Source: Adlercreutzia sp. ZJ473
GTDB lineage: Bacteria; Actinomycetota; Coriobacteriia; Coriobacteriales; Eggerthellaceae
Assembly (NCBI RefSeq): GCF_013185065.1
Contig: NZ_JAAVTO010000017.1
Span: 1-43,585 of the forward strand
Direction: 5' to 3'
DNA: 43,585 bases
Position numbers and translations under genes: made by a program. The notes under the pieces were generated by a model. That model was given only the letters and a program-made list of their open reading frames with translations. It was not told the origin of the DNA and did not search any database. Below, one piece after another: positions 19,883 through 36,434 of the stretch; position 1 is the first letter of the stretch, and the number at the start of each line of letters is the position of its first letter.

Positions 19883-20410
19883 TCAAGCCTGCGCCCGCAG
19901 GCGGGCGGCCAGCACGTTGAACAGCACGCCGCACACGGCGAAGGCAAGCAGGTACACCTTGCCCACCGTCGTGGTGAGCACGGCCAGGATGTCGCCCAGG
20001 GCGGGAACGGAAAGCACCATGAGCCCCTGGTAGTTGGCGTACGGCACGCGCTCGAGGTCCACGTCGGCGTTGGCGTCGCCCTTGGTCTCAAGAGCGCCTT
20101 CCACCACGTTGTTGGAGGTCACGCGATGCACCACCGTGCTGTCCTCGTGGGCGAAGGCGATCACGTCGCCCGCGACCGCGTCAGCGGGATCGCCCGCCGC
20201 CACGAACACGGCGCTGCCCACCGGGATGGTCGGCTCCATGGATCCCGACTCGATGCGCATGACCTGGACGCCAACTGTGCGCGGCAAGACGGCGGGCAGC
20301 AGCAGCGCTATCACGCTTACCAGTATGAGTATGCCGGCGCAGTTGCACGCGGCAGCCGCAATGCGACGGCCGCGCGCCTTCGACGCCGATGATCGCCCGC
20401 TGCGCACCAT
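19883..20410 (-). CDS. sipW: SipW-type (ER-type) signal peptidase I
   Basis: About 176 residues. The catalytic Ser sits in RIESGSMEPTIPVGS (about residue 57) and the partner base is a His in VVHRV (about 94) rather than the Lys of ordinary bacterial signal peptidases; this Ser/His pair defines the SipW/archaeal/ER type. One membrane helix lies before the active site (LILVSVIALLLPAVL) and one or two at the C-terminus. In Bacillus, SipW processes the biofilm fibre protein TasA. It is the last gene of the fibre locus and lies directly behind TasA-like genes. Start ATG 20410 or the adjacent GTG, with GGAGG close upstream. Confidence 0.87.
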   Translation of the reverse strand: MVRSGRSSASKARGRRIAAAACNCAGILILVSVIALLLPAVLPRTVGVQVMRIESGSMEPTIPVGSAVFVAAGDPADAVAGDVIAFAHEDSTVVHRVTSNNVVEGALETKGDANADVDLERVPYANYQGLMVLSVPALGDILAVLTTTVGKVYLLAFAVCGVLFNVLAARLRAQA

Positions 20411-20429
20411 CGCCTCCGCAGATCGCACG

Positions 20430-21503
20430 CTATCCCTTGCGATTAGCGTCGCGCGACCGCCTGCGCATGACGACGAAGCGCCACGCGACGACGCCGACGA
20501 TCGCAAGCACCAGGCAGGCAACTGCGATGCCCACCGGCGAGGCGAGGCCCCACAGCACCTGCGACTTCCCGTCGGCGGCGTTCGCAGCAAGCGGAACGGC
20601 GCTGTCATCGATGGAGGCGATCTCGGCGGGCGCGTCGGACAGGGGCACGCCGTCTGAGGGGATGTCGGTCGTGGGAGCCGGGTTCTGCTCGACAGCGCCG
20701 TCCTGGCCGTCCTGGCCGGCGGCATCCGTCGCGCCCGTCCCAGCGCCCGCAGCGCCCGCTGCGCCAGCGGCACCAGCCGCACCAGCACCAGCGCCGGCCG
20801 CGCCTCCCTCGCCCTCGCCCGCAGCCACAGGTGTGTACACGAACGTAAACGCGTTCTTCGACTCATCTTCCGAGAGGGTGCCGCTCAAGTTGTACGCCTG
20901 GGGCCGATAGCCCTCGATGTAGCGGTACGCCACCACCGGGCGGTCACCCACGTTGCCCTCGTAGCGCTGCGCGGGCGCGAGCTCGCGCCCGCTCTCGTCC
21001 ACGTAGGTCACCGTGTAGTACGTGACCGAGCCCTTCATGCCATAGGCGACCACCAGGTCAACGTCCTCGTCAACGATGAAGGACGACGTGTTCGCCACGG
21101 CGAGCGCCGTGTCGTTGTCGCGCCCGGCGAGCTTGATCCCCTTCACATAGTACTTGCTGTTGTCGGAAACGCGCACCATCTCAGGATGGAAGCTCCACCG
21201 CGCACCTGCGGGGATGTTCGCGTATATCTTGCAGCCCTCGCCATCGACCATGCCCTGGTTGCCGGCGAACACGCGCACCGTGTACGTGTAGTCCGCCTTG
21301 CCGTTCGCAACGCCAGCAGCGTCGACGGCGTCGGCGGCATGGGCGACGCCGGGGCACAGCGCCCCGCACAGAGCCAGCGCCGCGAGGAGGGCGCCCGCCG
21401 CAGCCAGCAAGGTCATCCGAGCACCCGCCAAGGCGCCCCCGCGCAGACGGCGCGAAGCCGCGCCTGCTCCGTTAACTCGGTCAGCTCCGCTAACGCCTCG
21501 CAT
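20430..21503 (-). CDS. MucBP-like secreted protein with C-terminal membrane anchor
   Basis: 357 residues. A basic N-terminus and long hydrophobic stretch (MTLLAAAGALLAALALCGAL…AHA) form a signal peptide. A MucBP-like repeat follows (TYYTVTYVDESGRELAPAQR, about 160-230), then an Ala/Gly linker, and a C-terminal helix with a basic tail (WRFVVMRRRSR). There is no LPXTG, so it stays in the membrane by its own helix. It could be the basal or anchoring part of the fibre, or bind mucin; MucBP domains are mostly found on surface proteins of gut bacteria. It overlaps the LPQTG gene by 14 bases and lies 20 bases before sipW. Confidence 0.75.
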   Translation of the reverse strand: MRGVSGADRVNGAGAASRRLRGGALAGARMTLLAAAGALLAALALCGALCPGVAHAADAVDAAGVANGKADYTYTVRVFAGNQGMVDGEGCKIYANIPAGARWSFHPEMVRVSDNSKYYVKGIKLAGRDNDTALAVANTSSFIVDEDVDLVVAYGMKGSVTYYTVTYVDESGRELAPAQRYEGNVGDRPVVAYRYIEGYRPQAYNLSGTLSEDESKNAFTFVYTPVAAGEGEGGAAGAGAGAAGAAGAAGAAGAGTGATDAAGQDGQDGAVEQNPAPTTDIPSDGVPLSDAPAEIASIDDSAVPLAANAADGKSQVLWGLASPVGIAVACLVLAIVGVVAWRFVVMRRRSRDANRKG

Positions 21504-22434
21504 GCTCGCCTTCCTTTCCCGCCGTCTCCTGCTCGCGCCTCCAGTATCGCCCGAGCAGCGCCATCACGAACAGCATCGCGCCGACTACGCCCGCAAGGAC
21601 CAGAAGCAGGATCATGTTCGTGCGATCACCCGTCTGCGGAAGCATCGATCCCAGAGGGCCGCTTGACCCCGGCGGGTCAAGCGACACCGACGGCGAGCCG
21701 GGCGTTGCCGGCGAGCCGGGCGTCGCCGCCAGCTCCACCGCGAACTTCATCTTGATGTCGGCCAGCGTGTCCTGGTAGGCGTTGTTGTTCGTCTCCCCGT
21801 CAAGGGACACCTGCAGCGTGACCAGGCCCTGCTCGTCCGACTTCAGCGTGTCGAGCATCAGGAAGCCCTCAAGCGAGCTGGTGGCCTCGTGAAGGCCCTC
21901 GCCCGAGCTGCCCACGGACTCGCCGCCCACCTGGTCGCTGCTGAACAGCGTCTTCTCCTGGCCGGACGGCCCCTTGTACGTGAGCACGTAGCCGTAGCCG
22001 CCGCCGTGCGCCACCGACACGGACGCCTCCAGCGACCTGATGACCTCGTTGGCGAGGTACCAGTCGGTGGTGGCCGCGTGGTCGTTCTTGATGGTCACGG
22101 CCACGGTGTTGACGTCACCCGGCTGCATGTCGGACACCGCGTCAGCGAAGTTCATGTTCTCGGGCGCGTGGACCATCTTCTCGTCAGGCGTGAAGGTCAC
22201 GCTCCAGTCGGTGCGCCCGTTGTACTCGACAGCGTGCGCCGCACCCGTTGGCAGCGCGGCCGTCACGCAAGCAGCGCACAGGGCGAACGTCGCCAGCGCC
22301 GCCAGCATCAGGAAGCCCATCGCCGCGCGAGCGCCCTGCCGCACGCCCTGCCGTGCGCGCATGCCAGCGCACGCACATGCCAGCACGCTGCCGCAAGCTC
22401 CCGCGCGAGCGCCCTTCTCTCTCCTCAGTCCCAT
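21490..22434 (-). CDS. LPQTG-anchored secreted protein
   Basis: About 314 residues. A long signal region ending …TGAAHA, one beta-rich domain (WSVTFTPDEKMVHAPENMNF … PGDVNTVAVTIKNDHAATTD), a short GSP-rich linker, and the cell-wall sorting signal LPQTGDRTN followed by a hydrophobic helix and a basic tail. The PGDVNTVAVTIKND pattern resembles the TasA/camelysin-type sandwich, where such a strand precedes the strand-donor region. Start chosen at ATG 22434, eight bases after AGGAGG; a TTG at 22440 is too close to it. Substrate for a sortase, most likely the one at 25085-26191 or a housekeeping enzyme elsewhere. Confidence 0.8.
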   Translation of the reverse strand: MGLRREKGARAGACGSVLACACAGMRARQGVRQGARAAMGFLMLAALATFALCAACVTAALPTGAAHAVEYNGRTDWSVTFTPDEKMVHAPENMNFADAVSDMQPGDVNTVAVTIKNDHAATTDWYLANEVIRSLEASVSVAHGGGYGYVLTYKGPSGQEKTLFSSDQVGGESVGSSGEGLHEATSSLEGFLMLDTLKSDEQGLVTLQVSLDGETNNNAYQDTLADIKMKFAVELAATPGSPATPGSPSVSLDPPGSSGPLGSMLPQTGDRTNMILLLVLAGVVGAMLFVMALLGRYWRREQETAGKEGEHARR

Positions 22435-22447
22435 AGTCAAAGCCTCC

Positions 22448-23281
22448 TTAGCCCAGGCTCAGCCGGTCGCCCGACACGACCACGTCCGCACCCCAGGCGC
22501 TCTTCGCGGCATCCTGGGCGTTGTGGTCCTGCACCGCCTCCACGCAGGCTTCCACGCAGAAGGTCAGGCCGTCGTAGTCGTACGTGGTGGTGATGACGGT
22601 GCCCTCGCCCGTTGCGCTCTCGGTCTGGGTCACGCGGCTGCTCACCGCCTTGTCGATGGTCAGCGCATCGGCGAACAGCGGCGCCACCTCACCAGGGGCG
22701 AGCAGGCGCGAGCAGTACAGCACCGTGCGCTCGGCGGTCGAGGCCGCCTCGTCCACCAGCCACGCGTCGCCGACGTTCACCAGGTTCAGGTCGATCAGGC
22801 TGGGAGAGACGTCCGTGCGCTTGGCACCCTGCTCGTCCACCCAGTACCGCGTCACGGTCACGCGCACGAACTGGCTGATCGAGCCCGTGTTCTGCACCGT
22901 CAGGCGCTCGTCGTAGGCAACGCCGGGCACGAGGCGGTCGCCAGGCGCGATCATGTGCTCGAGCAGCCGGCCCTCGGCGCCGCGGTACAGGTAGTCGCCC
23001 GTCTCGTCAGGCTCGACGAACGGCACCTGGTCGGGCAGCTTCGTGTTGGTCTCGTCCCAGTTGTTCTCGGAGAGGTAGTCGCGCCACGCCACGGGCACAT
23101 CGTTCTCCAGCAGCGAGACGCCGATGTTCTTCATCTCAACGTGGGTCATGTAGTCCTCGGAGAAGTAGGTGAGCGCCGCCTGCGCCGAGCCCACCCCGGA
23201 TATGCCGAGCAGCAGCACCGCTGCCACGAACAGCGCCAGGGTCACCTTCTGCTTGGCGAGGACGTCCTTCAAGCGCTCCAT
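22448..23281 (-). CDS. TasA-like SipW-dependent secreted protein
   Basis: 277 residues. The signal helix LALFVAAVLLLGISGVGSAQ is followed at once by AALTYFSED, the AxxYFS/T pattern seen at SipW-dependent cleavage sites. A conserved middle strand (VPGVAYDERLTVQNTGSISQ FVRVTV) matches what is seen in TasA/camelysin-type proteins. There is no LPXTG and no other membrane helix. Two cysteines near the end may form a disulfide. ATG at 23281 overlaps the previous stop (TGATG) with GGGAGGTGAG upstream. A minor fibre subunit or assembly factor is the likely role. Confidence 0.72.
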   Translation of the reverse strand: MERLKDVLAKQKVTLALFVAAVLLLGISGVGSAQAALTYFSEDYMTHVEMKNIGVSLLENDVPVAWRDYLSENNWDETNTKLPDQVPFVEPDETGDYLYRGAEGRLLEHMIAPGDRLVPGVAYDERLTVQNTGSISQFVRVTVTRYWVDEQGAKRTDVSPSLIDLNLVNVGDAWLVDEAASTAERTVLYCSRLLAPGEVAPLFADALTIDKAVSSRVTQTESATGEGTVITTTYDYDGLTFCVEACVEAVQDHNAQDAAKSAWGADVVVSGDRLSLG

Positions 23282-23898
23282 CAGCGCTCACCTCCCTCGG
23301 ATGCGTCGCCCGCGCTTCCGGTCTCGAGCTTCACGGACCAGTCGGCGCGCTCAGGCTCCACCGCGATGCCGTCGGGCTGGTACTGCGCGGGCGTGGTCTC
23401 GTAGATCACCACCACGTTGAACGCGTCCCCTGGCTGCGGAGCCGCCCCCGTGCCCATATCCGACGTGGGCACGTCTCGAATCATCAGGTCAAGCGCTGGC
23501 GTAGTGGCCCCGGGGTCCAAGATCCCGTTGAAGTAGTAATACCCGTCAGCGGCGAGGCTCCAGTTGGTGGCGCCGCCGGGCTCGCTGTACGTGATGGGGT
23601 ACTTTTCCGGGCCATAGGCCCTCACGCGCACGTACACCGCCTCGTCAGACGCGGCATCGCTCTGCACGGTGACCGACTTCGTCCAGTTCGCGAACTCCTC
23701 CTCCACCGTGGTGGTGTCGCCCAGCTCGAGCGTGTACCCGCCCTTCGCCTGGCAGTACGTGGTGAAGTACGCGCTCGCCGCGCCCACTCCCGCAACCGCG
23801 ATACACATGACGGCCACGGCGAACAGCGCAGCCACCCCGGCGAAGCGCGCCTTCCCGCAAGCCTGCGCGCTCGGCCTCTCGCACGATAACGCCTTCAC
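23281..23898 (-). CDS. TasA-like SipW-dependent secreted protein
   Basis: 205 residues. Signal helix (LFAVAVMCIAVAGVGAA) then SAYFTTYCQAKGGYTLELGD, the typical junction for SipW processing. The rest is beta-rich (FANWTKSVTVQSDAASDEAV, PGDAFNVVVIYETTPAQY). No sorting signal. Starts with GTG at 23898 after GGGGGAG. Overlaps the next gene by one base. Together with that gene and sipW it makes a set similar in logic to tapA-sipW-tasA in Bacillus, though the proteins themselves are clearly diverged. Confidence 0.72.
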   Translation of the reverse strand: MKALSCERPSAQACGKARFAGVAALFAVAVMCIAVAGVGAASAYFTTYCQAKGGYTLELGDTTTVEEEFANWTKSVTVQSDAASDEAVYVRVRAYGPEKYPITYSEPGGATNWSLAADGYYYFNGILDPGATTPALDLMIRDVPTSDMGTGAAPQPGDAFNVVVIYETTPAQYQPDGIAVEPERADWSVKLETGSAGDASEGGER

Positions 23899-23913: not shown

Positions 23914-25095
23914 CTAGTCCTCAGACGCCGGAGCGCCATGACTGTAGGCGGGGGAAAGCTCCCAGCCGCCTTTGCCGTATGCAAAGCTGTTGGTCACCGA
24001 CCCGCCGTGCACCTTGGTGTTGTCGTTGGTGTTGGCGAAGCTCACCTGCGCCACCTCGTCGGCCGCTATGACCGCCGTTCCCTCGGAAGCGCCCGCCACC
24101 TGGTAGGACGCGCCCGAGTACACCTCGCGCACCGTCACGGTGGCACCCACCGGAATCTTGTTCTCGATCAGGGCGCTCTTGCGGCCCGGCTGGTTGAACG
24201 TGATGGAAACCACGTCGTCGTAGACCTTCTTGCCGCTGACGTCGACGGCCTGCACGCTGAACACGAACGTGGCCGCGCTGTCGACGCCGGTGCCGTCGGT
24301 CTCGAAGCGGTCGAGCGCCTTCACGATCTCAAGCGAGCCCATGCGCGGGCTGACCTGCGGCTTGAGCATCGTATGGGCGCTGTAGCGCCAGTCGGCCCCG
24401 CTGGCGGTGGTGAGCGCCTGCCCCGCAGCCGCCTCGCGCGTGGGCAGCGACATGAGCACCGGCTCGAAGGCGCACTCCCTCAGCGCCGAGTACGCCACCG
24501 TGGCCGTCTTGCCATCTGGAAGCGTAGTGGCGTAGTCGTCTGCGGAAAGATTGGCCCCGTGCGCTACCAGCAGGTACAGGCCGCTGGGAAGCTGCAGGAA
24601 GTCAGCCTCGCACGCTGCGCCCTCGCCGCCCGCCGCGATCATGTCGGCATGAGGCGCGCTTGCGAGCGTGGGCTCAGGCGAGCGCAGGTCGGCGAGCGCG
24701 GCGGTCAGAGCCGCTTGCGCGAAGGCCTGCGAAGCCTGCGTGGCCGCGGCGCTGTCCTTCGACTCCATGGCCTTGTTCAGCGCCGCAACGTCAAGGTTTG
24801 CGAAAGGCCCGCCCTCGACCGGCGCGTAGGCGTAGGCGTCGTAGCCCTGCACCTGCTCGGCGCGCGCCACCAGGTAGGCGTCCACCTGGATGCCGGCGTC
24901 GGAGCCCGTGAAGGATTGGGGATCCTCCAGAGCGGCCGTCACCTTGAGGCTGCTGTCCTTGGACAGGTCGAGACTGGGCTGAGCCGCAGACGCCAGGCCC
25001 GCCGCAGCCAGCAGGCACAGCGCAGATGCGGCCGCGGCCGCCAAGCAGGCAAGCCACCTGCCCTTCCACGTGGCAGCAGAAGCGTTACCTTTCAT
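23914..25095 (-). CDS. DUF5979/Cna-like secreted surface protein
   Basis: 393 residues. Signal peptide ends around ASAAQPSLDLS. Residues ~40-240 form an unrecognised N-terminal domain, and ~255-370 match the Cna-B/DUF5979 type of beta domain (SLEIVKALDRFETDGTGVDS … TVTVREVYSGASYQVAGAS; Lys and Glu suitable for an isopeptide bond). It ends SHGAPASED without any LPXTG or membrane helix, so it is either released, held by a partner, or a pilus part joined in another way. ATG 25095 has AAGGAGGG six bases upstream; a TTG-type start at 25128 is less likely. It overlaps the sortase gene end by 11 bases. Confidence 0.75.
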   Translation of the reverse strand: MKGNASAATWKGRWLACLAAAAASALCLLAAAGLASAAQPSLDLSKDSSLKVTAALEDPQSFTGSDAGIQVDAYLVARAEQVQGYDAYAYAPVEGGPFANLDVAALNKAMESKDSAAATQASQAFAQAALTAALADLRSPEPTLASAPHADMIAAGGEGAACEADFLQLPSGLYLLVAHGANLSADDYATTLPDGKTATVAYSALRECAFEPVLMSLPTREAAAGQALTTASGADWRYSAHTMLKPQVSPRMGSLEIVKALDRFETDGTGVDSAATFVFSVQAVDVSGKKVYDDVVSITFNQPGRKSALIENKIPVGATVTVREVYSGASYQVAGASEGTAVIAADEVAQVSFANTNDNTKVHGGSVTNSFAYGKGGWELSPAYSHGAPASED

Positions 25096-26191
25096 GGTCT
25101 TCCCTCCTTGCGTCGGGGTTGTCAGCATTTGGATGCTCGAGTTCGGGCGCGATCGACACCGCGCGCTGGTCTTCCTCGGTCAGGCGCGCGGGCTTGCGGC
25201 GACTTGCCACCAAGAGCCCCACGAGCGCCAGAAGCAGGATCGGCACGGCCACGGCAGGCGCCATGATGTGGATGGGTACGCGCCGCGCGTCGCTTTCGCC
25301 GACCAGGTCATCGGGAATGCCGTCTACCCGGTGCCCGCGCACCAGCAGCCGGTGCGTATTTATGCCATACGGTGTGCAAGTTTGCAGGGTGACGAACTCG
25401 GTGCCATCTTCAGACGCAAGCGCCTCAAGCTGCCCAGGCTCCACGATGAGCACCTGGTCAACCTGGTAGAACATCTCATTTTCCAGAACGGTTATGCTGA
25501 AATAGTCGCCTTCGTGAATTTCATCCAAGTAGGTGAACAGCACCGCCGAGGGAAGCCCACGATGCGCAGATACCACCGGGTGCGTGCCTGCATCGCCTGT
25601 CGGGAGGTGCGAGCCCTCCAAATGACCCGCCGACGTTTGCAGCGTACCCTCTTCGGTGCCGTGGTAGATGGGCAGCCTCACGTCAATTTTGTCGACCGTT
25701 ACGTACCCAATCAACCCGTCGCCCGTCACGTTGAGGGCCTGCTCGTATTCCCCGTTGATGCTGGGAGCGCCGCTTAAGCGATCGGGCAGCGCGTCCAGCT
25801 GCGCGTTGTAGTCCCGCGCTTGGGCAACTAAAGTTGCCTTTTCTTCCTCAGTGAGTGCAGCCACGACTTCCTGGTATCCTTCGATGGCACGCGTAGCGTG
25901 CATTGAGTTCCACCAGTCGCTTACCGCCGGATAGCAGAAAATGCCGATGCCCGCGATGAGCACCAGCGCGATGATGACGCTGGAAAGCGATACGCGCCGC
26001 TTCTTCTTGGGAGGCTTGCTGTTTGTAGCAGTAGCAGCATCAGAGATCATATCGTCAGAGGAACTATCAGGCGCCAACGTGCTTTGGCCACCAGCTACAT
26101 AAGCCGAAGCGGCTGCGCCTTGCGCACTAGGCGCAGAAACAGACACAGGTGCGCCTTCGCTTTCAGATGATATGTTCTTTCGCTTAAACAC
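25085..26191 (-). CDS. Class C-type sortase (pilus polymerase)
   Basis: 368 residues. Sortases of this class cut LPXTG pilin signals and join subunits into a covalent fibre. A cytoplasmic N-terminal region of ~75 residues is unusually long. A first membrane helix (VSLSSVIIALVLIAGIGIFC), the catalytic His in VVSAHRGLPSAVLFTYLDEI (about 210), the catalytic Cys in TLQTCTPYGINTHRLLVRGH (about 270) with its Arg (about 282), and a C-terminal helix with basic tail complete the enzyme. The C-terminal helix and the SAHRG signature support class C. The start is GTG at 26191. It lies between the major pilin and the DUF5979-like gene. Confidence 0.88.
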   Translation of the reverse strand: MFKRKNISSESEGAPVSVSAPSAQGAAASAYVAGGQSTLAPDSSSDDMISDAATATNSKPPKKKRRVSLSSVIIALVLIAGIGIFCYPAVSDWWNSMHATRAIEGYQEVVAALTEEEKATLVAQARDYNAQLDALPDRLSGAPSINGEYEQALNVTGDGLIGYVTVDKIDVRLPIYHGTEEGTLQTSAGHLEGSHLPTGDAGTHPVVSAHRGLPSAVLFTYLDEIHEGDYFSITVLENEMFYQVDQVLIVEPGQLEALASEDGTEFVTLQTCTPYGINTHRLLVRGHRVDGIPDDLVGESDARRVPIHIMAPAVAVPILLLALVGLLVASRRKPARLTEEDQRAVSIAPELEHPNADNPDARREDHER

Positions 26192-26321
26192 GGTGAAGAA
26201 CAGCCGCTCCTTGCGACACGGTGGTTGGTCCTATGCGTATGTTTCGTTGGTTGATTTAGCCGGAGCAATAAGCTCCGTTGCTCGCCGCGCGCCAACGTGA
26301 AGGCATCAACCGACGCGGCAA

Positions 26322-26348: not shown

Positions 26349-26382
26349 CGTAGCTTGCGGAGGAACCGCAAAGAGGGAGGTG

Positions 26383-27864
26383 CTACGCCGTATGCTTAGC
26401 AGAACGACGCTTGATGATGAAGGCAGCCAGAGCGCCCACAATCAGAATCCCGCCACCCACATAGAAGATCGTGGTACCGATACCACCAGTGGAGGGAAGC
26501 AGGGCGCCTGTATCGTTGGCAACGTTTTCCGTCTTGGTCAGAGGCGTGAGATCCGAACTCGTTACAGCGCTATCACCATTGATAGTTACCTCAACACCTT
26601 GATCCAACTTGTTATAGCCATTAGGAGCTTGGGTTTCTTCAAGCGTATACGTGCCATCCTTAAGACCAGGGAATTCAACTTTACCATCGCGTTGGGTTGT
26701 CTTGGATGTAGCGTTTTCTAGACTAACCCACTCAACCTTGGCCGGATTGCCACCAGAAGCCGCTGTGTACTTGTAGTATAAATTATTGGAATTCTTCAAC
26801 ACAAACGTGGCATAAGCAAGTGTCTTCCCCGTATTGCCAGTTTCATGCTTGTTCACAACAATCTTGGCAGAATATACCTTCTCTTCGTCAGTCAAAGTTC
26901 CGTGTTGGGTGCTATCCGAAGGATCGTTGCTGTAGCTCAACGTTGCATGGTTGTTATCAGTCTTGGCAACAGCATTGTCGTTAACGGTAGCAGAGTAGGT
27001 AATGAAGATGTACTCGCCAGCCATACCAGCCGTATTCATTTCCACTGGCTTGAAATTGACTCGAAAAGCAACATCCTCGTTTCCATTAAACGATTTAGCG
27101 CCCGTGGTTATTTTCGTATAGTAGCTATCGCCCAACTCGCTGTCGGCTTCAGTCAGCACATCATCTTCAGAAATGTAGATTTTGATACTGCTCTCATTAA
27201 ACGTGAGACCTTCGGTCATTTTGTCGGTAATCACATAATCGAAAGTATTATATGCAGACGTATTGGGGACTTGACCCTCAATGGTATATTTGACCTCCTG
27301 GCCAACCTCTACGCCGTCAGTATCACCTACATTGTCAGTTTTATCAAACGGAATCTCGTTCTTATCTTTTATGACTGCCTTAGGATTAGTGGAGTCAACT
27401 GTAATAACTGCGCCACTGTCCGTAGTTACAACATAGTAACCATACTCAAGACCTTCGAAAATTAAAGGAGTGGTTTCGCATTTTACTTTAGGTTGTACCG
27501 GAGTCAAGTTAGCTACAGCGTAGGCTTTTATAGCAGCTATGGCATCCGGGCTCAAAGAATTGCTCACCGCACTGATGTTACCTGCGCTGTCTTTCACAAA
27601 ATAGCTATCCAGAGCCTCCGGAATATCTCCGGTATAGGCGATAGAATCGGACTTACCATCGTCGTTACTATCCGCAGCAACTGTAGCACTAAATAGCTTA
27701 TACACAGAGTAGGTTTTATCAACTTTTGCGTTCTCGATAGTGATAGACGCCTTGTCGGATGCGGCGATGCCAACCGTCTGCGCTACAGCTGCGGAGGGCA
27801 CGAGCAGGGCCGCCATGAGCACAGCCAGTGCTAAGCTTGTTAGTTTTTTTAACGCGGATTTCAT
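26383..27864 (-). CDS. Major pilin, SpaA-type, LPSTGG
   Basis: 493 residues. Signal peptide to about residue 30 (…SAAVAQ), FimA-like D1 domain, a central CnaA-type isopeptide domain, a CnaB domain with its E-box YTLEETQAPNGYNKL (about 425), and the sorting signal LPSTGGIGTT with a helix and KRR tail. In Gram-positive pili the sortase links each LPXTG to the Lys of the next subunit; a candidate pilin-motif Lys lies in the D1 domain region. The gene is visibly more AT-rich than its surroundings (for example 26750-27700) and uses codons unlike the neighbours. Start ATG 27864 with AAGGGA upstream. Confidence 0.88.
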   Translation of the reverse strand: MKSALKKLTSLALAVLMAALLVPSAAVAQTVGIAASDKASITIENAKVDKTYSVYKLFSATVAADSNDDGKSDSIAYTGDIPEALDSYFVKDSAGNISAVSNSLSPDAIAAIKAYAVANLTPVQPKVKCETTPLIFEGLEYGYYVVTTDSGAVITVDSTNPKAVIKDKNEIPFDKTDNVGDTDGVEVGQEVKYTIEGQVPNTSAYNTFDYVITDKMTEGLTFNESSIKIYISEDDVLTEADSELGDSYYTKITTGAKSFNGNEDVAFRVNFKPVEMNTAGMAGEYIFITYSATVNDNAVAKTDNNHATLSYSNDPSDSTQHGTLTDEEKVYSAKIVVNKHETGNTGKTLAYATFVLKNSNNLYYKYTAASGGNPAKVEWVSLENATSKTTQRDGKVEFPGLKDGTYTLEETQAPNGYNKLDQGVEVTINGDSAVTSSDLTPLTKTENVANDTGALLPSTGGIGTTIFYVGGGILIVGALAAFIIKRRSAKHTA

Positions 27865-28131: not shown

Positions 28132-28746
28132 CTAACTCACCGGGCCGAAGCGGTTCAGCGGCCAGACGCGGAGAGCGAGCTTGCCCACCATGTCATCGGG
28201 CGACACACACCCGATCTGGCTGCTGCGGCTGTCCACGCTCGTTTGGCGATGGTCGCCCATCACGAAGTGCTTGCCGTCGGGCACCTGGAACGGCAGCTTG
28301 ATGTCGCACGTTCCGAGCGCCTTGTCGGTCACGTAGGGCTCGTCCAGCTCCTCCCCGTTCACCGACACGTTGCCGTCCTTGTCAATGTCCACCCAGTCGC
28401 CCGGGCCCGCGATCACGCGTTTCACCAGCACGTTGTTGTTGTGGTAAAACGCCACCACGTCACCCTGCTGCAGGTCGCTCACGCCCAGCGTCATCACCAC
28501 GTCGCCGTCTTCCAGCGTGTCGGTCATGGACGAGCCGCTGATCACCAGCGTGGGCAGCATCAGCACCGCCGCGAGCACCGCCACCGCCGCCACCACCACC
28601 AGGCCCAGGATCGTGCTGGTCGTGATGCGGCGCTTGGTCTGCCGGCGTCGCTCGCGCTCGAGCTCGGCTTTCACCGATTCGGTGTTCACGAACACCGTCT
28701 GGCACGTGATCTCAGCCGGGGTCACCGCCTGTCCGTCATCGCTCAC
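28132..28746 (-). CDS. lepB: Signal peptidase I (Ser/Lys type)
   Basis: 204 residues. One N-terminal helix (TTSTILGLVVVAAVAVLAAV) then the active Ser in VISGSSMTDTLEDGD (about 70), the general base Lys in NVLVKRVIAGPGDWV (about 108), and GDHRQTSVDSR box E, so this is an ordinary bacterial type I enzyme. Pilus loci in actinobacteria and streptococci often contain one; it presumably processes the pilin and adhesin precursors. GTG start overlapping the upstream stop (GTGA). It makes the locus one with two signal peptidases of different catalytic type. Confidence 0.88.
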   Translation of the reverse strand: MSDDGQAVTPAEITCQTVFVNTESVKAELERERRRQTKRRITTSTILGLVVVAAVAVLAAVLMLPTLVISGSSMTDTLEDGDVVMTLGVSDLQQGDVVAFYHNNNVLVKRVIAGPGDWVDIDKDGNVSVNGEELDEPYVTDKALGTCDIKLPFQVPDGKHFVMGDHRQTSVDSRSSQIGCVSPDDMVGKLALRVWPLNRFGPVS

Positions 28747-29894
28747 GCATCAGCCGCCTTTAGGTTGTCAGCGGGCGAGACAGGGGACGGTGCGTCCCTG
28801 TCCTGGCTGCCGTCAGCCGCTTGCACGGGTGCTTTCGCGGGGGTTTCCGCTTCGTGATCGCTGCTGACCGCGGCCCACGCTGCCGCACCTCGCCCGCCTT
28901 CGGACGAGGTGGCCGCTGTCGCACGGGCAGGCTGGCCGTCGAGATCCCCGCACACCTCCTGCAAGCTGGCGATATACCAGTCCGCCGTGGCGTTGAACGC
29001 CTCGAGTGCGCTGCGCACGCCCTTGGCCGCGTTCGCGATGATCCGCGCGTGTCTTTGCTCTTCTTCCTTCGACACCTCCAGTTCATCCAGTCGCGCCTGC
29101 ATCAGCGCGATGCGCTTGTCCTTATCATCAAGGCGCCCCTTCAGGCGCTCGATTTGCTCGTCCTTGGCGTCGAGCTTCTCACGCAGCCGCGCGTTGAGGC
29201 TGGTGCAGCGCTCGAACTCGTCCGCAACGTCGCGCAGGTAGTCCTGCAGGCGCTCGGCGTCCTTGCTTTGCGTCAGCAGCAGCTGCAGCAGGTCTTCGCG
29301 GCTGAGCCGCGAGAGGTCGCGCGACTTCGTGACGATGACGCTCTCCAGGGAGGGAGCGCTCATGGCCTGCTCGGCTGCGAGATCGGCCGACTGGTTGGCG
29401 AGCTGGTTAGCCGGCTGGTCAGCGAGCTGATCGCCGTCCGACCATTCGGCCGCTGGTTGCACCGGCTGATCAACATCAGACCGCTCAGCTGCCGACTGCG
29501 CGTCAGATATTGAGAAGTCGCTCGCCTGAGCCTCAGCCACGGGAAGGGCGGCTGAGGACTCCGCGTCGGTCGGCTGCAGCCCAGCCTCTTGCGCGTCAAC
29601 TACTGACGTATCGTCCGTCTGAACACCGGTTGTCTGCGCATCAGCCTCTCCGGCATCGGGCGAATTGACTCCCGCTGGCTGCGGCTCAGCCTCTTGCGAT
29701 CCATCTGATCCCTCTCCAGTTGCTTGGGTGTCGGCCGATCTATGTTCAGTCGCCTGCTCTTCAACCACCTGCTGTTCACCTGCTTGTGGCTCAGTTACTT
29801 GCAAGTCGATCGTTTGCACATAGTCCGTCTCGGCCTCAGCCGACTGTTGCTCAACCGCTTTGTCCGTCTTACGCTTCCTGTCGAACAAACCCAT
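28743..29894 (-). CDS. Acidic coiled-coil cytoplasmic protein, function unknown
   Basis: 383 residues with no signal peptide or membrane helix. Residues ~15-190 are a low-complexity Ala/Glu/Gln/Asp tract (for example QQVVEEQATEHRSADTQATG). Residues ~205-290 form a predicted coiled coil with heptads (LNARLREKLDAKDEQIERLK). A short conserved-looking segment follows (ALEAFNATADWYIASLQEVC). It lies between the adhesin and the signal peptidase, overlapping the latter by four bases, with a good GGAGGTGAGG site before ATG 29894. I do not recognise it. A cytoplasmic scaffold or organiser of pilus assembly is a possibility. Confidence 0.7.
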   Translation of the reverse strand: MGLFDRKRKTDKAVEQQSAEAETDYVQTIDLQVTEPQAGEQQVVEEQATEHRSADTQATGEGSDGSQEAEPQPAGVNSPDAGEADAQTTGVQTDDTSVVDAQEAGLQPTDAESSAALPVAEAQASDFSISDAQSAAERSDVDQPVQPAAEWSDGDQLADQPANQLANQSADLAAEQAMSAPSLESVIVTKSRDLSRLSREDLLQLLLTQSKDAERLQDYLRDVADEFERCTSLNARLREKLDAKDEQIERLKGRLDDKDKRIALMQARLDELEVSKEEEQRHARIIANAAKGVRSALEAFNATADWYIASLQEVCGDLDGQPARATAATSSEGGRGAAAWAAVSSDHEAETPAKAPVQAADGSQDRDAPSPVSPADNLKAADA

Positions 29895-30020
29895 GAGTTC
29901 CTCACCTCCGTTCCCTGTTTTCCGTGCTTTTGCCTGTGCGTTTTGCCGAAATCGGCATGGCTATCGCTGGCACCCGAGTTTCGAGTGCATACGTTTGTAT
30001 GCTTTTTCATTGGATTTGCG

Positions 30021-33000
30021 CTAGACGCGCACGCCTCGTCGTCGCTTCGCCGCCAACCCCGCGCCCGCGCACGTCATAAGCGCCGCGCCGACACCAAGAA
30101 AGGCGCCTACGCCCCCGCCACCAGTTTCGGGCAGCTCGAAGCCTCTCGTGTTCACGACCTTCAACAAGGGCACTGTCTTTTCGACGCCATTAGCTTCTTC
30201 GATGGTGGCCTTTCCATCTAAAACCTTTGCAAGTTTTTCGTTTGAGTCCTTAAAAGTTTCGCAGTCGACAATCTTACAGGTAGTACCCATGATCTCACCG
30301 TTACTACCAGTGCCATGCTTGAGCTCAATAGAAATTGGTTGGGTCAGCATTGTGTATCCAGCAGGTGCCTGTTTCTCAATCAGCCAATATTTTCCGGCAG
30401 GAAGCATATCGGTGGGAACCAAGTCTTTAAACTCGATTCGCCCAGTATTAGAGTCAGAAACCATATCTTCTATGTTCACCTTCACATACTTCTTAAGCTC
30501 AGACAGACCCGCGACTGAATCGCCCGTCTCGCCTTCCAAAGCTTCCCGATACAGATCAAACGCGGCACCCGGAAGCACGGAAGGTTTCTCCTTGCTGTCA
30601 TCCGTCTTCTCTAGCACGAAGTCACAACTTGTCGCCTGGATGACAGGGTTATCGTATTCAACCGTTGTCAAATCGACGTCATCACTCTTTTTGTATTTCA
30701 GCGTTGCTTTGGCGTTTGAATAGAAGCCGGACTGTTCAGAACTGGTATTGTTGTCACGATAATCTGTCCCTTTATCACCTTTCACTTCAGCACCGTTTTT
30801 GAGATACTTATCACCGCTGTCGGCAAACTCGATATACGCCTTATCGCTAGCCTTCACATTAAAGGAAAGCGTGTATGTGCAACTCGGATCCAATTGGTAT
30901 TCACTATTAAACGTAGCGGTTACTCTCTTTGTCCGGTTTCCCTTACTATCCGTTACGTCTTCGGCCTTGACGCTTTCTACAATAGGAACCCCTTTGCTCA
31001 ATTGGGCAGAATTGGTATATTCACCCTGCTCACTCACTTCGCAAGGCCAAAGGGTAATGGGTTCTTGATCCGCCTTGCTCATGGTCACCTTAATGTCTGG
31101 CTGATCCATGTAATAGTCCACATAAGTACTCAAGGTGTCCTCTATTATCAGATTGCTCACCTTGGAGCATTTGACAAACTTTCTCAGAGCACTTTCTAGC
31201 TCGCTTGCATTACTAGCGGGGAGATAGGCTCCGTGACCGTTTGTCGCCATATATTGCAATGTTGCAGGATCAAGGGACTCCAAACCCTGTAGTAATCCAC
31301 TGTCGGGAATAATGCCGATGGTATAAGCGTGAACGTCTTTAGTAGCATCATCTTTTAGAAACACATCTCTGATGTACTTTTGGGTATTTGTTTTACTAGG
31401 TTCTGTGACTTCTGAACTCGCGTATCCCCAACCGCCTCCTTGCCTAATTCCTTCATTATCGTAATAGATTGTCGGAACCCCATCGGAAAGGAAGATCATC
31501 ACTTTCTCGTTACTTGATGTGCTAGAGAACAAATCTTTTGCTTTCATCAGAGCGGCACAATAGTTGGTATAACCCGCTGGATAAAGGCCCTTTGCTTTCA
31601 CATTCACGAATCCAAGATCATCAGAGTTGCCCTTACCAGAGAACCATCCGTCTGGATCGCAGTTGGCACCAAGAGGCTCTACGTTATCTAGGTATTGGTA
31701 GTCATTCCCGCCCGTAGATCCAAAGAAGCCCACTACTGCAACCCTGTTCTCTTCATTCATCTTCAAAAAGTTATAGATGAGACCCCCTTCCTTGAGTTGA
31801 GGGTTTGCTTCGTAAGCTCCTTTATCAGAGGTCCCGTTTAGTATTTCTCGAACTACCTCATCGCGACATCGTATTTTCAGTCGCTTATTTTCTCGTAATA
31901 CTTCCAGCGGTTTACCCATACTATCCGATTCGTCCACCACAATTACGAGATCAACAGCGCTTTCTTTGCCTTTTACAGCCGCGTCAAGATAGAGACGGTA
32001 AAGGTCAGTTTTATCGATAGGATTCCCTTTGTCGTCTTTTGCGTCATCCAATTCGGTGTCGTTATTCCCCTTGCCATCTCGGAAAGCGTCAATGGTCTTA
32101 TGGTACGAAACTGCAGCGTCAGGATCAGGATCTAAACTTGGAGAATCACTGCCCGAATTAACCTGCACTACGGGGTGGGGATACGCCACGGTCTGTTCTT
32201 CTCCACCTTTCGTGTAGGTAAGCGTTGCCGTCTTGTTTGAATCGAAACCAGGCTGGCCAGAGCTGGTGACATTTCCTTCATAGTCTGTGTTACTGTCGCC
32301 AACGCTAGGATCCACATTCGGCTCTACAGATTCGTCGCCGTATTTATTCTCCGCTTTGGGGTGCGTTTCTGCATAGGCTTTATATGCGGCGTAGGCGTGT
32401 TGGGTTGTCTTCACGTTGAAAGACAGAGTGACAGTCGCTCCGGGCCGTGGCGCATACGCAGAGTCAAAGTTGGCCGTGACGGTTTTGCCTGAGATTACCA
32501 ACGGTTGCCTTGAGTCCAAAATACCGGCACCTTCTGGTGTAATTTGACCATCATCGTAAAGTGTCTTCTTGACGCCACCGGCTTCCGTCAAGGTAATTTT
32601 GAAATCAGGGGCTGTCGAATGAAACTCGACGTAGTCACTTAAAGTATCCGCAACTGTCAGATCAGAGTACACAGTGTCGAACATCACCTCGTTAAGATCT
32701 TTCTTCAAGTCCGCTGTGGTAGTAGTGTTGTAGGATTTCCCACCACCGGAGGTCGCCATTCCTTCCAAACGGCTAATTGCATTAGCGATTGCTTCATCTG
32801 AATCCTTTTTTGAACTATCGAGAATACCTATCGTATTAATGATGACATCAGGATGATGCTCTCTGAGTTTATCGAAATACTCATCGGTAATATTACTCGT
32901 ATTGAACGTATCATCGTATTGTCCATCACCACCCCGAAAATAGGCATCCTCCCATAAGTTTGTACCTTTCGTGATATTGCACGTAGGCTGGCCATCGGAT

Positions 33001-36000
33001 ATGAAGAGAACAACTTGCTTATGAGCGCTATCTGCACTGTCCAATAACTTATCTGCTTGCAAGAAACCTGCGCTGTAGTTTGTTGCATTTGCATATATTC
33101 CCTTTATGCCAACATATTGCGGCTCTTTCGTCCAAGGCACAAGGATTTCAGCATCATGCTGCCCGTTATCACCAACCACCGCATTTGCTGTCGGGGAGGT
33201 AATTGAGTTTTCGTCAAAACCGGCTTCCTCGTTATAGTTTTCACTGGTTACATTTTTGACATCACTATATGCAAAGGGCTTGCTTCCCTGAAAACCTATC
33301 ACTGCTACTCGGTTCTCGTTGTTCGCTTGCAAAAATTGATAAATCAAGCCGAACTGCTGGTTATCCGACCAGAGAGCCTCGTCGCTAGATAAATCCTGCT
33401 CATGGGAATCCCATGTATAATTGCGTTCTTCGGCATAAGCACCATTTAAGATAAGACGAACCGCTTCATCACGATAAATCATTTCGCCTTCGTAATTCTC
33501 CATGTCTTTCCCATCTGGTGAGCCATAGTTATAATGCATACTGCCTGACTGATCCACGACAATCAGAAGATCGACGGGCGTTGCTTCTGCGCTCAATTGC
33601 GCATCAAGATAGAGACGATAGAGATCTTTTTTCTGATTCTCGTTAGCTATGTTGTCCAAATTTGTATCGGGGTTGTCCACACCATCGCGGAATGCATCAA
33701 TGGTCTTAAGCGCAGTTATCGACGGCTCACTGCCAGAAACATCGCGTGCATTAATCTGCGTTCGGTTCGCATCGCCCGCATTCAAGACTTGCGGCTTCAT
33801 GAACACTTCGGAGAAGCTATCCAAAGTAAAGCTAACGTCTTGTCCATTGTCGTTGTTGGTAGTTTCTGCCTGCACCGTTTCCAGCTCGTCGCCAAAATGG
33901 ACGATTTCATAGGTTATATCCTGCTGCTGACCATCGCAGCTGATGGTCACCTTAACCGGCGCAGCGGGTTCCACTTCCTTATCGCCCACATAGAAGCCCA
34001 CGTCAAACAGACGAATTCCATCAGCGGGGCCAGCTTCCCAACCGTATTGCGCGGCCGCCTCGGCGTAGCGATCCTGATAGTGCTGGGAATCTTTTGCGTA
34101 TTCAGTAGCCCGCAGCTCGGCGTTTTCGGGAAGCTGCGCCTCGGGGCCGTAGACCGCCTTCACGGTGTAGCCTTCACCCTCGAAGGTTTGGGTGATTTGG
34201 TTATCGTTCTGGCCTTGAGTTTCGCCTGCAGCCATTCGGGCTTCTACTATCTTTTGCAGGGCTTCCGCGTTTTCTGGGACTTCTGCATAACCCAGGATGC
34301 TCGCATCGGCGCGCTCGTATTCGATGCTTTGCACCTTGTCGGCGTGGCTTTCCGCATCTTCCACATCGCCCTGGATCACGCGGATGCGATCGGGGTTGTT
34401 CTGGTCGGCGGGCAGCAGTTCTTCCACAATGCCCACGTGGTCGGCCAAGGCCGTAACTTCCGCATAGGCGGCCGCCACCTTATCCGCATCCTCTTCCTTG
34501 GCGAAGAACACCACGTCGCCCGGTTTGGGCGTGTATTCGCTCTCTACGGGATGATACAGCCCATACTCTTCGCTCTGCAGCGCCTCCAGCCATTCGGAGC
34601 ACGTCAACTCGACCGGATACTCATCCGCGCCGGCATAGTGCAGGCAGAAGGCCACGAACGGCACGCTCCAGTCTGCATAGGGGTCCCCAGCCCACTCGCC
34701 ATAGCGGGTGTAGCCCTTGGTGACGCCGCTCTCGTCCGCAACGCAGTTTTGCTGGCTCTCGGCGTAGTCGACCTGCGACTGCGCGACGGCCACCACGTCA
34801 TTCGGCCAGCTGTTCGTCAGCTCGCTCGGCAGGGTCTTCTTCCAGTCCTCCTCCGTCTCGACGTCGGCATTGGCGTCGGCGACGGCATCGGGCTGGCTGG
34901 AGCCCTCGGAGCTCGCGGCATCAGCGCTGGGAGCGGAATCGGGGTCGGGAGCGTCAGCCTGGACCGCGGGCTGACTTTCAGCTTCGCTTGCAGCCAGGCG
35001 GGCGGCGTCCATGAGGTCCTGCAGCGCCTGCTTGCTCTCCGGGACTTCCGCATAGCCCAGGATGTGCTTGTCGGCGCGATCGTAGTTAGCGCGCTGCACC
35101 TTGTCAGCGTGCTTCGTCTTGTCTTCGAGGTCGCCTTGTATCACGCGGATGCGCGCGGGGTTGCCCTTGTCGTCGGCGGGCAGCACTTCTTCCACGATGC
35201 CCACGCTGCTGGCCAGGGCCGATACGCCGGCATAGGCGTCCTCGGCCTGCGCTTGCGCCTGCGCCGCTTGCGTCGCTTGCTCGTCCTGCGCGGCGGCTTC
35301 CGCGCCTTGCGACGCCTCCGCATCCTGCGCCGCCGCAGCGTCGGCCTGCGCCTGCGCCTGTGCCTGCACTTGCGCCAGAGCCTCGGCGGCCTGCGTGCGC
35401 GCAGTCGCCACCTTTTCCGCATCCTTGTCCGAACCCAGAAACACCAGGTCGCCTGGCTTCGGCTCATATCCGCCCTCCACAGGATGGTACAGCCCGTACT
35501 CATTCCCTTGGAGCTTCTTCGCCCATTCGGGGCACGTCATCTCAACCGGGTAGCCGTCCGCCTTGGCATAGTGCAGGCAGAAGGCCGCGAACGGCGCGCT
35601 CCAGTCAGCGTAGGGGGTGTCGGCCCACGCGCCGTAGCGGGTGTAGCCCTGCGGGTCGCCGTTCGCGCCCGCGACGCGGTTGAGCTGGCTCTCGGTGTAG
35701 TCGAGCTGAGACTGCGCGACGGCCACCACGTCCTTCGACCAGTCGCCGGTCAGGTTGCTGGGCAGGGTTGCCTCCCAGTCTTTCGCCGTCTCGACGTCGG
35801 CGTCGGCGTTGTCATAGCAGCTTTGGCTGTGAGTGTGCTCGGGGGTGGTGCAGGTGAGGGTCTTCTCGTAGCACGCGTCGGTATGGGTGTGGCCTGGGGT
35901 TTCGGGCTTTTCGCAGACGAGGGTCTGCGTGGACTGGGCAGGCTGGGTCGACTGGGCGGCGGGCTGGGCCGACGCTCCCTGCGCAGCTCCAGAGGCAGCC

Positions 36001-36434
36001 GCAGACGACTTCGCCTGCTCGGCTGCTTGCGCTGACGCCTGGGCCTGGGGCTTTTCGGATTGAGGCTTCTCGCCCTGCGCAGCCGCAGAGGCTTTGTCCT
36101 TGGACGCTGCCGAAGACGCCTGCGCGGCGCTCGAGGCCGCTGCGTCTTTGGCCGCCGGCGCGGGCGTCGACGACACCGCGTAGCAGCCGTTCGCTATCGA
36201 GTGCGTGTGAGCTTCCAGCTCTTCCTGCCCGCACTTCAGCGTCTTCTCGTAGCAGGCGTCGGCGTGGGCGTGATCGACGAACCCGCAAGTGGGGTCCCCC
36301 GTCATGGCAATGCCCGTGTTCTTCAGCGCCCAGAACACGCCCAAGACGACAAAGACCGCAGCGAACACCGCCACGGTAAGCGCGATTCTCTGCAGTTTTC
36401 TATTCTCGCGAGCAGCCTCCAGATAAGCCCGCAT
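30021..36434 (-). CDS. Giant multidomain LPETG adhesin (likely pilus tip)
   Basis: About 2137 residues. In order: a membrane/signal helix (~15-40); Cys/His repeats of the pattern HxHxxxCYEKTLxC (~45-85 and ~175-205); an Ala/Lys/Gln linker; two CHAP-like modules (~215-330 and ~528-645, each with YADWS[AV]PF.AFCLHY); two vWA domains with MIDAS motifs VDQSGSM (~960) and VDESDSM (~1500), each followed by a CnaA-like domain; a CnaB domain with E-box WLIEKQAPAGYTM (~1936-2030); and LPETGGGG with helix and KRRRG tail. Tip pilins of Spa/Rrg type share the vWA-Cna-LPXTG plan. In both CHAP-like modules the catalytic Cys position (W-C-A in active ones) is Ser. Start ATG 36434 behind AAGGTGG; GTG 36470 lacks one. 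Confidence 0.85.
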   Translation of the reverse strand: MRAYLEAARENRKLQRIALTVAVFAAVFVVLGVFWALKNTGIAMTGDPTCGFVDHAHADACYEKTLKCGQEELEAHTHSIANGCYAVSSTPAPAAKDAAASSAAQASSAASKDKASAAAQGEKPQSEKPQAQASAQAAEQAKSSAAASGAAQGASAQPAAQSTQPAQSTQTLVCEKPETPGHTHTDACYEKTLTCTTPEHTHSQSCYDNADADVETAKDWEATLPSNLTGDWSKDVVAVAQSQLDYTESQLNRVAGANGDPQGYTRYGAWADTPYADWSAPFAAFCLHYAKADGYPVEMTCPEWAKKLQGNEYGLYHPVEGGYEPKPGDLVFLGSDKDAEKVATARTQAAEALAQVQAQAQAQADAAAAQDAEASQGAEAAAQDEQATQAAQAQAQAEDAYAGVSALASSVGIVEEVLPADDKGNPARIRVIQGDLEDKTKHADKVQRANYDRADKHILGYAEVPESKQALQDLMDAARLAASEAESQPAVQADAPDPDSAPSADAASSEGSSQPDAVADANADVETEEDWKKTLPSELTNSWPNDVVAVAQSQVDYAESQQNCVADESGVTKGYTRYGEWAGDPYADWSVPFVAFCLHYAGADEYPVELTCSEWLEALQSEEYGLYHPVESEYTPKPGDVVFFAKEEDADKVAAAYAEVTALADHVGIVEELLPADQNNPDRIRVIQGDVEDAESHADKVQSIEYERADASILGYAEVPENAEALQKIVEARMAAGETQGQNDNQITQTFEGEGYTVKAVYGPEAQLPENAELRATEYAKDSQHYQDRYAEAAAQYGWEAGPADGIRLFDVGFYVGDKEVEPAAPVKVTISCDGQQQDITYEIVHFGDELETVQAETTNNDNGQDVSFTLDSFSEVFMKPQVLNAGDANRTQINARDVSGSEPSITALKTIDAFRDGVDNPDTNLDNIANENQKKDLYRLYLDAQLSAEATPVDLLIVVDQSGSMHYNYGSPDGKDMENYEGEMIYRDEAVRLILNGAYAEERNYTWDSHEQDLSSDEALWSDNQQFGLIYQFLQANNENRVAVIGFQGSKPFAYSDVKNVTSENYNEEAGFDENSITSPTANAVVGDNGQHDAEILVPWTKEPQYVGIKGIYANATNYSAGFLQADKLLDSADSAHKQVVLFISDGQPTCNITKGTNLWEDAYFRGGDGQYDDTFNTSNITDEYFDKLREHHPDVIINTIGILDSSKKDSDEAIANAISRLEGMATSGGGKSYNTTTTADLKKDLNEVMFDTVYSDLTVADTLSDYVEFHSTAPDFKITLTEAGGVKKTLYDDGQITPEGAGILDSRQPLVISGKTVTANFDSAYAPRPGATVTLSFNVKTTQHAYAAYKAYAETHPKAENKYGDESVEPNVDPSVGDSNTDYEGNVTSSGQPGFDSNKTATLTYTKGGEEQTVAYPHPVVQVNSGSDSPSLDPDPDAAVSYHKTIDAFRDGKGNNDTELDDAKDDKGNPIDKTDLYRLYLDAAVKGKESAVDLVIVVDESDSMGKPLEVLRENKRLKIRCRDEVVREILNGTSDKGAYEANPQLKEGGLIYNFLKMNEENRVAVVGFFGSTGGNDYQYLDNVEPLGANCDPDGWFSGKGNSDDLGFVNVKAKGLYPAGYTNYCAALMKAKDLFSSTSSNEKVMIFLSDGVPTIYYDNEGIRQGGGWGYASSEVTEPSKTNTQKYIRDVFLKDDATKDVHAYTIGIIPDSGLLQGLESLDPATLQYMATNGHGAYLPASNASELESALRKFVKCSKVSNLIIEDTLSTYVDYYMDQPDIKVTMSKADQEPITLWPCEVSEQGEYTNSAQLSKGVPIVESVKAEDVTDSKGNRTKRVTATFNSEYQLDPSCTYTLSFNVKASDKAYIEFADSGDKYLKNGAEVKGDKGTDYRDNNTSSEQSGFYSNAKATLKYKKSDDVDLTTVEYDNPVIQATSCDFVLEKTDDSKEKPSVLPGAAFDLYREALEGETGDSVAGLSELKKYVKVNIEDMVSDSNTGRIEFKDLVPTDMLPAGKYWLIEKQAPAGYTMLTQPISIELKHGTGSNGEIMGTTCKIVDCETFKDSNEKLAKVLDGKATIEEANGVEKTVPLLKVVNTRGFELPETGGGGVGAFLGVGAALMTCAGAGLAAKRRRGVRV

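Follow-up and report, generated by a model that had tools for sequence, protein, structure and literature searches.

Do the genes of a covalent sortase pilus and those of a SipW-dependent set of secreted proteins serve one surface structure or two, when they stand side by side in a single cluster? The question is raised by a locus of Adlercreutzia sp. ZJ473 (Actinomycetota, Coriobacteriia, Eggerthellaceae; contig NZ_JAAVTO010000017.1), which occupies positions 19883-36434 of the 43,585-nucleotide stretch analysed here (hereafter the window). Eleven minus-strand genes, read as open reading frames (ORFs) from the sequence, run from g1 (36434) to g11 (19883), to which strand all gene coordinates below refer; g1 to g5 form a pilus half and g6 to g11 what we call the S half, after S1 and S2, the products of g7 and g8. 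In the initial annotation the locus was taken for a hybrid, in which a TasA-like fibre would be decorated with or capped by the pilin. We favour a different reading, a covalent sortase pilus built on a separately processed surface dock, to which we assign as a whole a probability of roughly 0.55.

The gene order g6-S1-S2-g9-g10 was met again in about 70 loci, most of them with a class C sortase in front, from Coriobacteriia and from Clostridia (those of the latter that are named being Lachnospiraceae), and its repetition in so many loci amounts to more than chance adjacency. The gene directly upstream of S1 encoded the C-terminal domain of g6 in 70 of the 70 rows with an upstream gene, corresponding to 68 distinct genes; L022 and L095, which have no S1 call, stand outside these rows, two of the 70 repeat genes of the overlapping stretches L096-L098, and 39 of the 68 upstream genes belong to loci outside those from which the profile of the g6 C-terminal domain was built. 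Two kinds of upstream protein, short ones resembling g6 and giant ones, align at their C-termini through a DUF5979-like immunoglobulin (Ig) domain and, mostly, through the tail G-x-G-[VI]-x-N-x-[FY], and a looser text search placed the tail string near the C-terminal end in 65 of the 68, with a close variant in the remaining three. In 14 whole genomes, 19 strong matches to the tail domain coincided in position, one to one, with 19 S1 matches, and did so also where a genome has two or four copies; these genomes were chosen for having S2 and some of them supplied rows of the profile, yet extra matches elsewhere would have shown. One extra weak match (G144, E 2e-7) did not cover the tail. This 19:19 pairing is the strongest evidence that both proteins work together, and the S genes and the tail protein very probably constitute one functional unit.

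The cargo carried by this unit differs among loci. Type I loci comprise a tip protein, a pilin, one or two class C sortases, a short g6, S1, S2, g9, g10 and often SipW, whereas in type II loci a giant protein (1,009-3,635 amino acids as seen, some cut) is followed by S1, S2, g9, g10 and sometimes SipW. The 69 distinct proteins upstream of S1, the window's included, were divided into 48 short proteins with an adjacent sortase, 14 giants without and seven short proteins without, the last group including L020, with a sortase several kb downstream, and L045 and L065, which lie near contig ends. SipW was present in the fetched stretches of 38 of 47, eight of 14 and four of seven of these groups, respectively (window not counted). 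With FctA, Cna_B, DUF7601 and DUF5979 domains in the 2,718 amino acids searched, the giant of L013 may be a pilus-like stalk in a single chain. The giant tail-domain protein of L015 (G352, contig C249) lies in an open frame of 6047 amino acids, far longer than the locus piece. Two other loci, L008 (G013) and L041 (G087), combine SipW with S2-like or BsaA-like proteins, with no tail protein found alongside, and were not counted as the module; one protein of L008, with a PKTGD signal at its end, gave matches to S2 as well as to g9.

In the order to which the window belongs, S2 was found in 25 of 347 genomes (11 of 116 genera) and a class C sortase in 162 of 347, 149 of them over the cut-off. Nine of the 25 S2 genomes had no class C sortase and 16 had one. 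Among the nine, G087, with a weak S2 match, showed another arrangement and was set apart; the remaining eight carried giants or, in G262, a protein cut by a contig end. G350 and G352 (loci L013 and L015) were likewise devoid of class C sortase, and some giant loci were harbored by genomes that also have a pilus-type locus, e.g., G366 and G583. The proposal that both halves contribute to one structure therefore survives in part: they make up a single type of locus, conserved in two phyla, and are tightly spaced, but the hybrid is not obligate, the S half occurring also in genomes without class C sortase, an outcome which the initial annotation had itself named as contrary to its proposal. In most of these cases the pilus is replaced by a giant that shares the C-terminal domain of g6, which speaks for the S half as a dock and not, as had been supposed, a fibre decorated or capped by the pilin.

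The protein joining the two halves would be g6 (23914..25095), on which the initial annotation was silent; it comprises an N-terminal domain, a pilin-like lysine, a DUF5979/CnaB-like Ig domain (24031..24339) and a C-terminal tail, G..VxNxF..W (23962..24006), found also in the giants of loci without an adjacent sortase. We aligned 54 short g6 proteins, leaving out loci with several modules. In window numbering K259, E324 and N355 of the Ig domain were invariant (54/54 each), a triad which we take to be the make-up of the autocatalytic isopeptide bond of CnaB-type domains, and so was N369 of the tail (54/54). Just before the Ig domain, in a segment covering residues 236-245 (24361..24390), W236 (51/54) and K245 (53/54) were kept at a spacing of +9, as in the pilin motif, whose canonical form is given as WXXXVXVYPKN in the part of PMC5536039 available; one g6 protein carries WNYNVKIYPK. 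After removal of repeated genes, a loose W-x8-K before the Ig domain was found in 34 of 48 short proteins with adjacent sortase, four of seven short proteins without and two of 14 giants (one-sided Fisher p 2.2e-4 for the first against the last, the loci being not phylogenetically independent). A strict form with hydrophobic residues at +4 and +6 occurred in 20/48, 3/7 and 1/14, respectively. The SpaH/EbpB pilin family was matched by four of 21 g6 proteins (best 3.8e-8), not including that of the window, and a sequence search of the PDB with the g6 profile returned at best a pilin fragment (E 0.013), which is not credible. On balance, we consider it fairly likely that g6 is a base pilin.

These observations bear on whether the locus encodes two separate, co-transcribed structures, i.e., a sortase pilus and a SipW-dependent set of biofilm proteins to which g6 would belong. 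The S set does occur without the pilus, only 16 of the 162 genomes with class C sortase are among the 25 with S2, and in C. perfringens the sortase gene beside sipW-bsaA is described, in the available part of PMC7395162, as dispensable for BsaA polymers. On the other hand, the sortase and g6 genes are tightly spaced (median gap 17 nt in 46 loci, with 4/46 at 100 nt or more, as compared to a median of 147.5 nt and 36/44 at 100 nt or more between LPXTG pilin and sortase in 44 loci, with gene starts assigned by a simple rule), a pilin-like motif is present in g6 mainly in the pilus context, and the distances of sortase and S2 are correlated (Mantel r 0.68 for the Clostridia, with 33 loci, and 0.89 for the Coriobacteriia, with 15, values as high being reached in 0 of 500 permutations; shared species history is not controlled in these values). 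Two independent structures are in our judgement rather improbable.

According to the reading we prefer, the class C sortase g5 would join the tip protein g1 and the backbone pilin g4, and we infer that transfer of the chain to K245, in the pilin-like motif of g6, ends assembly, g6 acting as a base pilin that has no LPXTG signal of the usual kind. Its Ig domain and tail would then sit on a platform formed by S1 and S2 after their release by SipW (g11), and g9, with a transmembrane (TM) segment and a possible sortase signal, would fix this platform to the cell together with the membrane protein g10. The tip and pilin precursors would probably be processed by the Ser/Lys peptidase g3 or by a general peptidase. 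In loci without pilus genes the giant would replace g6. Docking of the tail on S1, S2 and g9 seems to us fairly probable, its achievement by strand complementation a more tentative suggestion. The precedent for the latter is TasA, whose N-terminal strand completes the next subunit (PMC9674648) and to which TapA donates its own N terminus (PMC10151520), at least as described in the portions of these papers at hand; by analogy, donor-strand exchange in S1 and S2 is put forward as a hypothesis.

The SipW-type signal junctions reported initially were readily recognized: SAYFTTY in S1 (g7, 23281..23898) and ALTYFSE in S2 (g8, 22448..23281), each after a hydrophobic signal. Both are beta-rich secreted proteins; S2, with a VQDHNAQDA..SAWG motif, is 93% identical to its counterpart in Adlercreutzia sp. 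ZJ176. The assignment of g11 (19883..20428) as a Ser/His SipW-type peptidase was equally borne out, since the motifs SGSMEP and VVHRV were read from its sequence and TIGR02228 was matched with 73.6 bits (cut-off 51.85); to the Bacillus SipW equivalog it scored 55.6 bits, below the 190 required. Its start is uncertain and probably lies near 20428, not 20866. The nearest named family for the S proteins was BsaA (TIGR04090), matched at E <=0.1 by 24 of 31 S2 (best 1.7e-8) and 18 of 31 S1 proteins (best 7.5e-7), and the SipW-signal model TIGR04088 was matched at the same threshold by 15 of 31 S1 proteins. The window's own S1 and S2 scored 17 and 20.3 bits against TIGR04090, under its 60-bit cut-off, and a search of the window's genome with TIGR04088 gave no match. 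A distant relationship of S1 and S2 to proteins of the BsaA/TasA type is thus plausible, the sequences pointing weakly to BsaA.

The TasA-like fold, in contrast, was not confirmed. Structure models were of low confidence (mean predicted local distance difference test score, pLDDT, 65.6 for S1 and 61.6 for S2). TasA appeared at rank 25 among the Foldseek matches of the S2 model (E 0.014, probability 0.77), not among the 50 best matches listed for that of S1, nor among the 50 best listed by VIA-align for either, which excludes nothing. With both tools the matches were generic beta sandwiches (cohesin-like, pilin Ig domains, MSP and adaptin ear), none reaching E <=0.001 in Foldseek or a Z of 8 in VIA-align for either model. 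Sequence searches of the PDB gave nothing credible (best E 0.88 with S2 alone; with profiles, 0.14 for S2, 0.018 for S1, where the hits were antibody chains, and 0.56 for g9), and comparison among profiles (probabilities of 88.8% for S1-S2, 93.9% for S1-g9, partly over signal-peptide regions, and 2.2% for S2-g9) is the basis for no conclusion. An assembly in which N-terminal donor strands link S1 and S2 into a long, TasA/BsaA-like matrix fibre, anchored via g9 and decorated or capped by the sortase pilus, would draw on the family matches, on the mode of polymerisation of TasA (PMC9674648, as far as the text available describes it) and on the presence of TasA among the S2 matches. Against it stand the sub-threshold scores of the window proteins and the generic beta sandwich predicted by the models; moreover, each module holds one S1 and one S2, and a free matrix fibre would not need a strict partner with a shared C-terminal domain. 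We regard such a hybrid fibre as unlikely.

How the dock would be fixed to the cell leads to g9 (21490..22434; a TTG start at 22440 is possible), in which a secreted domain is followed by LPQTGD, a TM helix and basic residues. Close to the C-terminal TM helix, 63 of 68 g9 proteins kept the string [QKR]T[GS]D but only nine the proline of LPQTG, so that the window shows one form among several of a degenerate signal: the LPQTG protein initially described does exist, but its LPQTG is a lineage detail. Since some sortase was present in all 17 genomes tested, g9 may still be wall-linked in type II loci, and wall anchoring via its signal is a possibility. The g9 protein could also be an ordinary LPXTG base pilin, with S1, S2, g6 and g10 in an accessory role, as matrix proteins or chaperones. 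Its LPQTG in the window and its position within a pilus operon would agree with this, although g9 is also present in loci of genomes without class C sortase and generally lacks the proline; we hold it to be very improbable. The adjacent g10 (20430..21503) has a MucBP domain and a C-terminal TM helix preceded by IDDSAVPLA, a loose VPLA-like pattern being found in 35 of 69 g10 proteins.

Besides this role conceivable for g9, several observations weigh against a pilus seated on g6 and the S proteins. No LPXTG-type string was found at the C-terminus of any giant or of the window's g6, which has no TM segment either and so does not show the signal expected of a base pilin; in three short proteins (L065, L068 and L075) such a string was flagged, but it is not followed by a membrane segment. 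In the accessible part of PMC5536039 the basal pilins named carry LPXTG-like signals, some pili having no basal pilin, and a signal-less g6 would therefore be an exception. The strict motif was present in only 20 of the 48 short g6 with adjacent sortase, the window segment, WRYSAHTMLK, has only the loose form, and the latter was found with no sortase alongside in two giants, L083 and L073 (the latter probably truncated by the start of its contig), as well as in four of the seven short proteins. In addition, the low-confidence models give no fold evidence for a strand-exchanging dock, and the giants L007 and L037 show no pilus-type Pfam domains.

The history of the loci was considered through their distribution and a tree. 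Scanning of genome contigs for S2 returned eight loci. Adlercreutzia accounted for two of them and Clostridia for the other six (four titled Lachnospiraceae and one Pseudobutyrivibrio, a genus of the same family). In four of these six, pilin, class C sortase, g6, S1, S2 and g9 followed one another as in the window (one on a 5-kb contig showing no more), and in two a giant stood in place of the pilus genes; in the longer of the four pilus-type loci the signal peptidase precedes the tip gene, in the window it follows. S2 matches, many of them weak, were obtained in 49 of 397 genomes of the family of G353 (locus L016), probably Lachnospiraceae, from which the best 40 of 67 S2 places were fetched besides L016 and 26 weaker ones left out; L019, the same locus as L010, was dropped from the counts. 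In wider samples S2 was found in three of 398 genomes of the phylum of G353 and two of 296 of that of the window, the centre genome included in each, indicating that in these samples the module is concentrated in two groups. One tblastn search for S2 on plasmids found none.

On the tree of concatenated S1, S2 and g9 (67 loci), the distribution of giant and pilus cargo needs six changes when all short proteins are scored as pilus, five without the unclear rows (61 labelled) and four if L097 and L073 are also omitted. With at least four to six changes, the upstream partner appears to have been exchanged several times on a dock that persisted. The clade of Adlercreutzia falls within a starred group of 20 Clostridia and six Coriobacteriia rows (Shimodaira-Hasegawa-like approximate likelihood ratio test support of 95, in a quick tree with some long branches), and this mixed group suggests transfer between phyla. 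A broader proposal would make of S1-S2-g9-g10-SipW a general docking system replacing LPXTG anchoring, whose TasA/BsaA-like subunits, once released by SipW, capture a C-terminal strand of the cargo tail (V-x-N-x-F-x-Y) by strand complementation, so that a pilus or a giant adhesin is grafted on a non-covalent base, with cargo repeatedly swapped and loci passed between phyla; we offer it as a possibility somewhat short of even odds.

The pilus half is, judging from its sequences, an ordinary class C sortase pilus, and the classical set initially recognized (vWA tip, Ser/Lys peptidase, LPSTG pilin, class C sortase) is upheld by family matches; this assignment depends on features other than a base-pilin sorting signal. 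The sortase g5 (25085..26191) scored 238.6 bits to NF033745 (cut-off 160), and the LPSTG backbone pilin g4 (26383..27864; an ATG at 27933 is possible) 114 bits to the SpaH/EbpB-type model NF033902 (cut-off 95). No canonical pilin motif was seen in g4, the strict pattern being present in one of 42 backbone pilins scanned, some of them with a ..DKN segment. The tip adhesin g1 (30021..36434; a GTG start at 36470 is possible) bears VWA, DUF7604 in two stretches, a SpaA domain, a CHAP domain and an LPETG anchor. The CHAP domain (Pfam E 1.9e-6, residues 597-685), with an earlier similar segment recognized by eye (window 34400-36434), seems unusual in a pilus tip protein.

The signal peptidase I g3 (28132..28746) matched TIGR02227 with 118 bits and carries the motifs SGSSM and VLVKRV; Ser/Lys and Ser/His pairs denote catalytically different signal peptidases. 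Of the loci with an adjacent class C sortase, 26 of 47 had a Ser/Lys peptidase, as compared to one of 14 giant-protein loci, in fetched stretches of differing length, a distribution that fits two peptidases serving different clients, as the initial annotation had supposed. The gene overlapping it, g2 (28743..29894), encodes a coiled-coil-like protein in which no signal peptide is evident; of the 47 other loci with an adjacent class C sortase 19 have it, and the two genes co-occur in pilus-type loci of both phyla.

All eleven genes were found as reported, and their spacing, computed from coordinates, is tight: 126 bp between g1 and g2, an overlap of 4 between g2 and g3, gaps of 267 (g3-g4) and 191 (g4-g5), an overlap of 11 between g5 and g6, then 15 (g6-g7), an overlap of 1 (g7-g8), 13 (g8-g9), an overlap of 14 (g9-g10) and 1 (g10-g11). 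Both halves are thus present, but no gap divides them: their boundary is the 11-bp overlap of sortase and g6 genes, gaps of 126-267 bp lying elsewhere in the locus. Promoter and terminator scans gave nothing decisive. Guanine plus cytosine content, about 60-70% over most of the window, falls to 45-51% at window positions 26000-28000 and 30000-34000, which hold the pilin gene and a large part of that of the tip; it looks as though exchange had affected the exposed pilus genes at a later date than the dock. Beyond the locus, two overlapping plus-strand ORFs (37331-38144), read by eye as a small protein and one resembling a PIN-domain toxin, are possibly a toxin-antitoxin pair.

Known systems resemble the locus in parts. 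SpaA-type three-component pili such as SpaCBA of L. rhamnosus, as far as the available text of PMC5536039 extends, have the same tip, LPXTG backbone pilin and class C sortase, and likewise a smaller Ig-domain protein with a pilin-motif-like lysine, a possible polymer terminator; in the window the candidate base pilin is without LPXTG or TM segment and five further conserved genes, including SipW, follow at once. The C. perfringens operon sipW-bsaABCRSD, responsible for the BsaA biofilm polymer, shares a SipW-type peptidase, a secreted protein of the BsaA kind and a nearby sortase gene, but the sections of PMC7395162 available describe a sortase dispensable for the polymer and neither a tail protein nor coupled pilus genes, and S1 and S2 of the window fall below the BsaA cut-off. 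The tapA-sipW-tasA operon of B. subtilis is alike in SipW processing, beta-sandwich subunits and an accessory anchor or starter protein (PMC9674648; PMC10151520), and differs, in the parts of these papers available, in forming a TasA fibre with TapA and no sortase pilus; the TasA fold has no confirmed counterpart in S1/S2. The CapP-TasA-CalY system of B. cereus likewise makes filaments from several components, among them TasA/CalY subunits and an accessory protein localised at the wall, and is described in the available portion of PMC13082335 as sortase-independent, unlike the window locus. No description of the present gene set was found in searches of the open PMC library, subscription journals and preprints being outside that coverage.

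If the proposed reading is true, Gram-positive gut bacteria would have a second means of retaining sortase pili at their surface, and a role would be found for a gene set that recurs in Coriobacteriia and Clostridia. Sortase pili and matrix proteins of the SipW/TasA type, so far two fields, would become linked in one unusual predicted chain, with a covalent isopeptide polymer above and, possibly, a strand-complemented assembly below.

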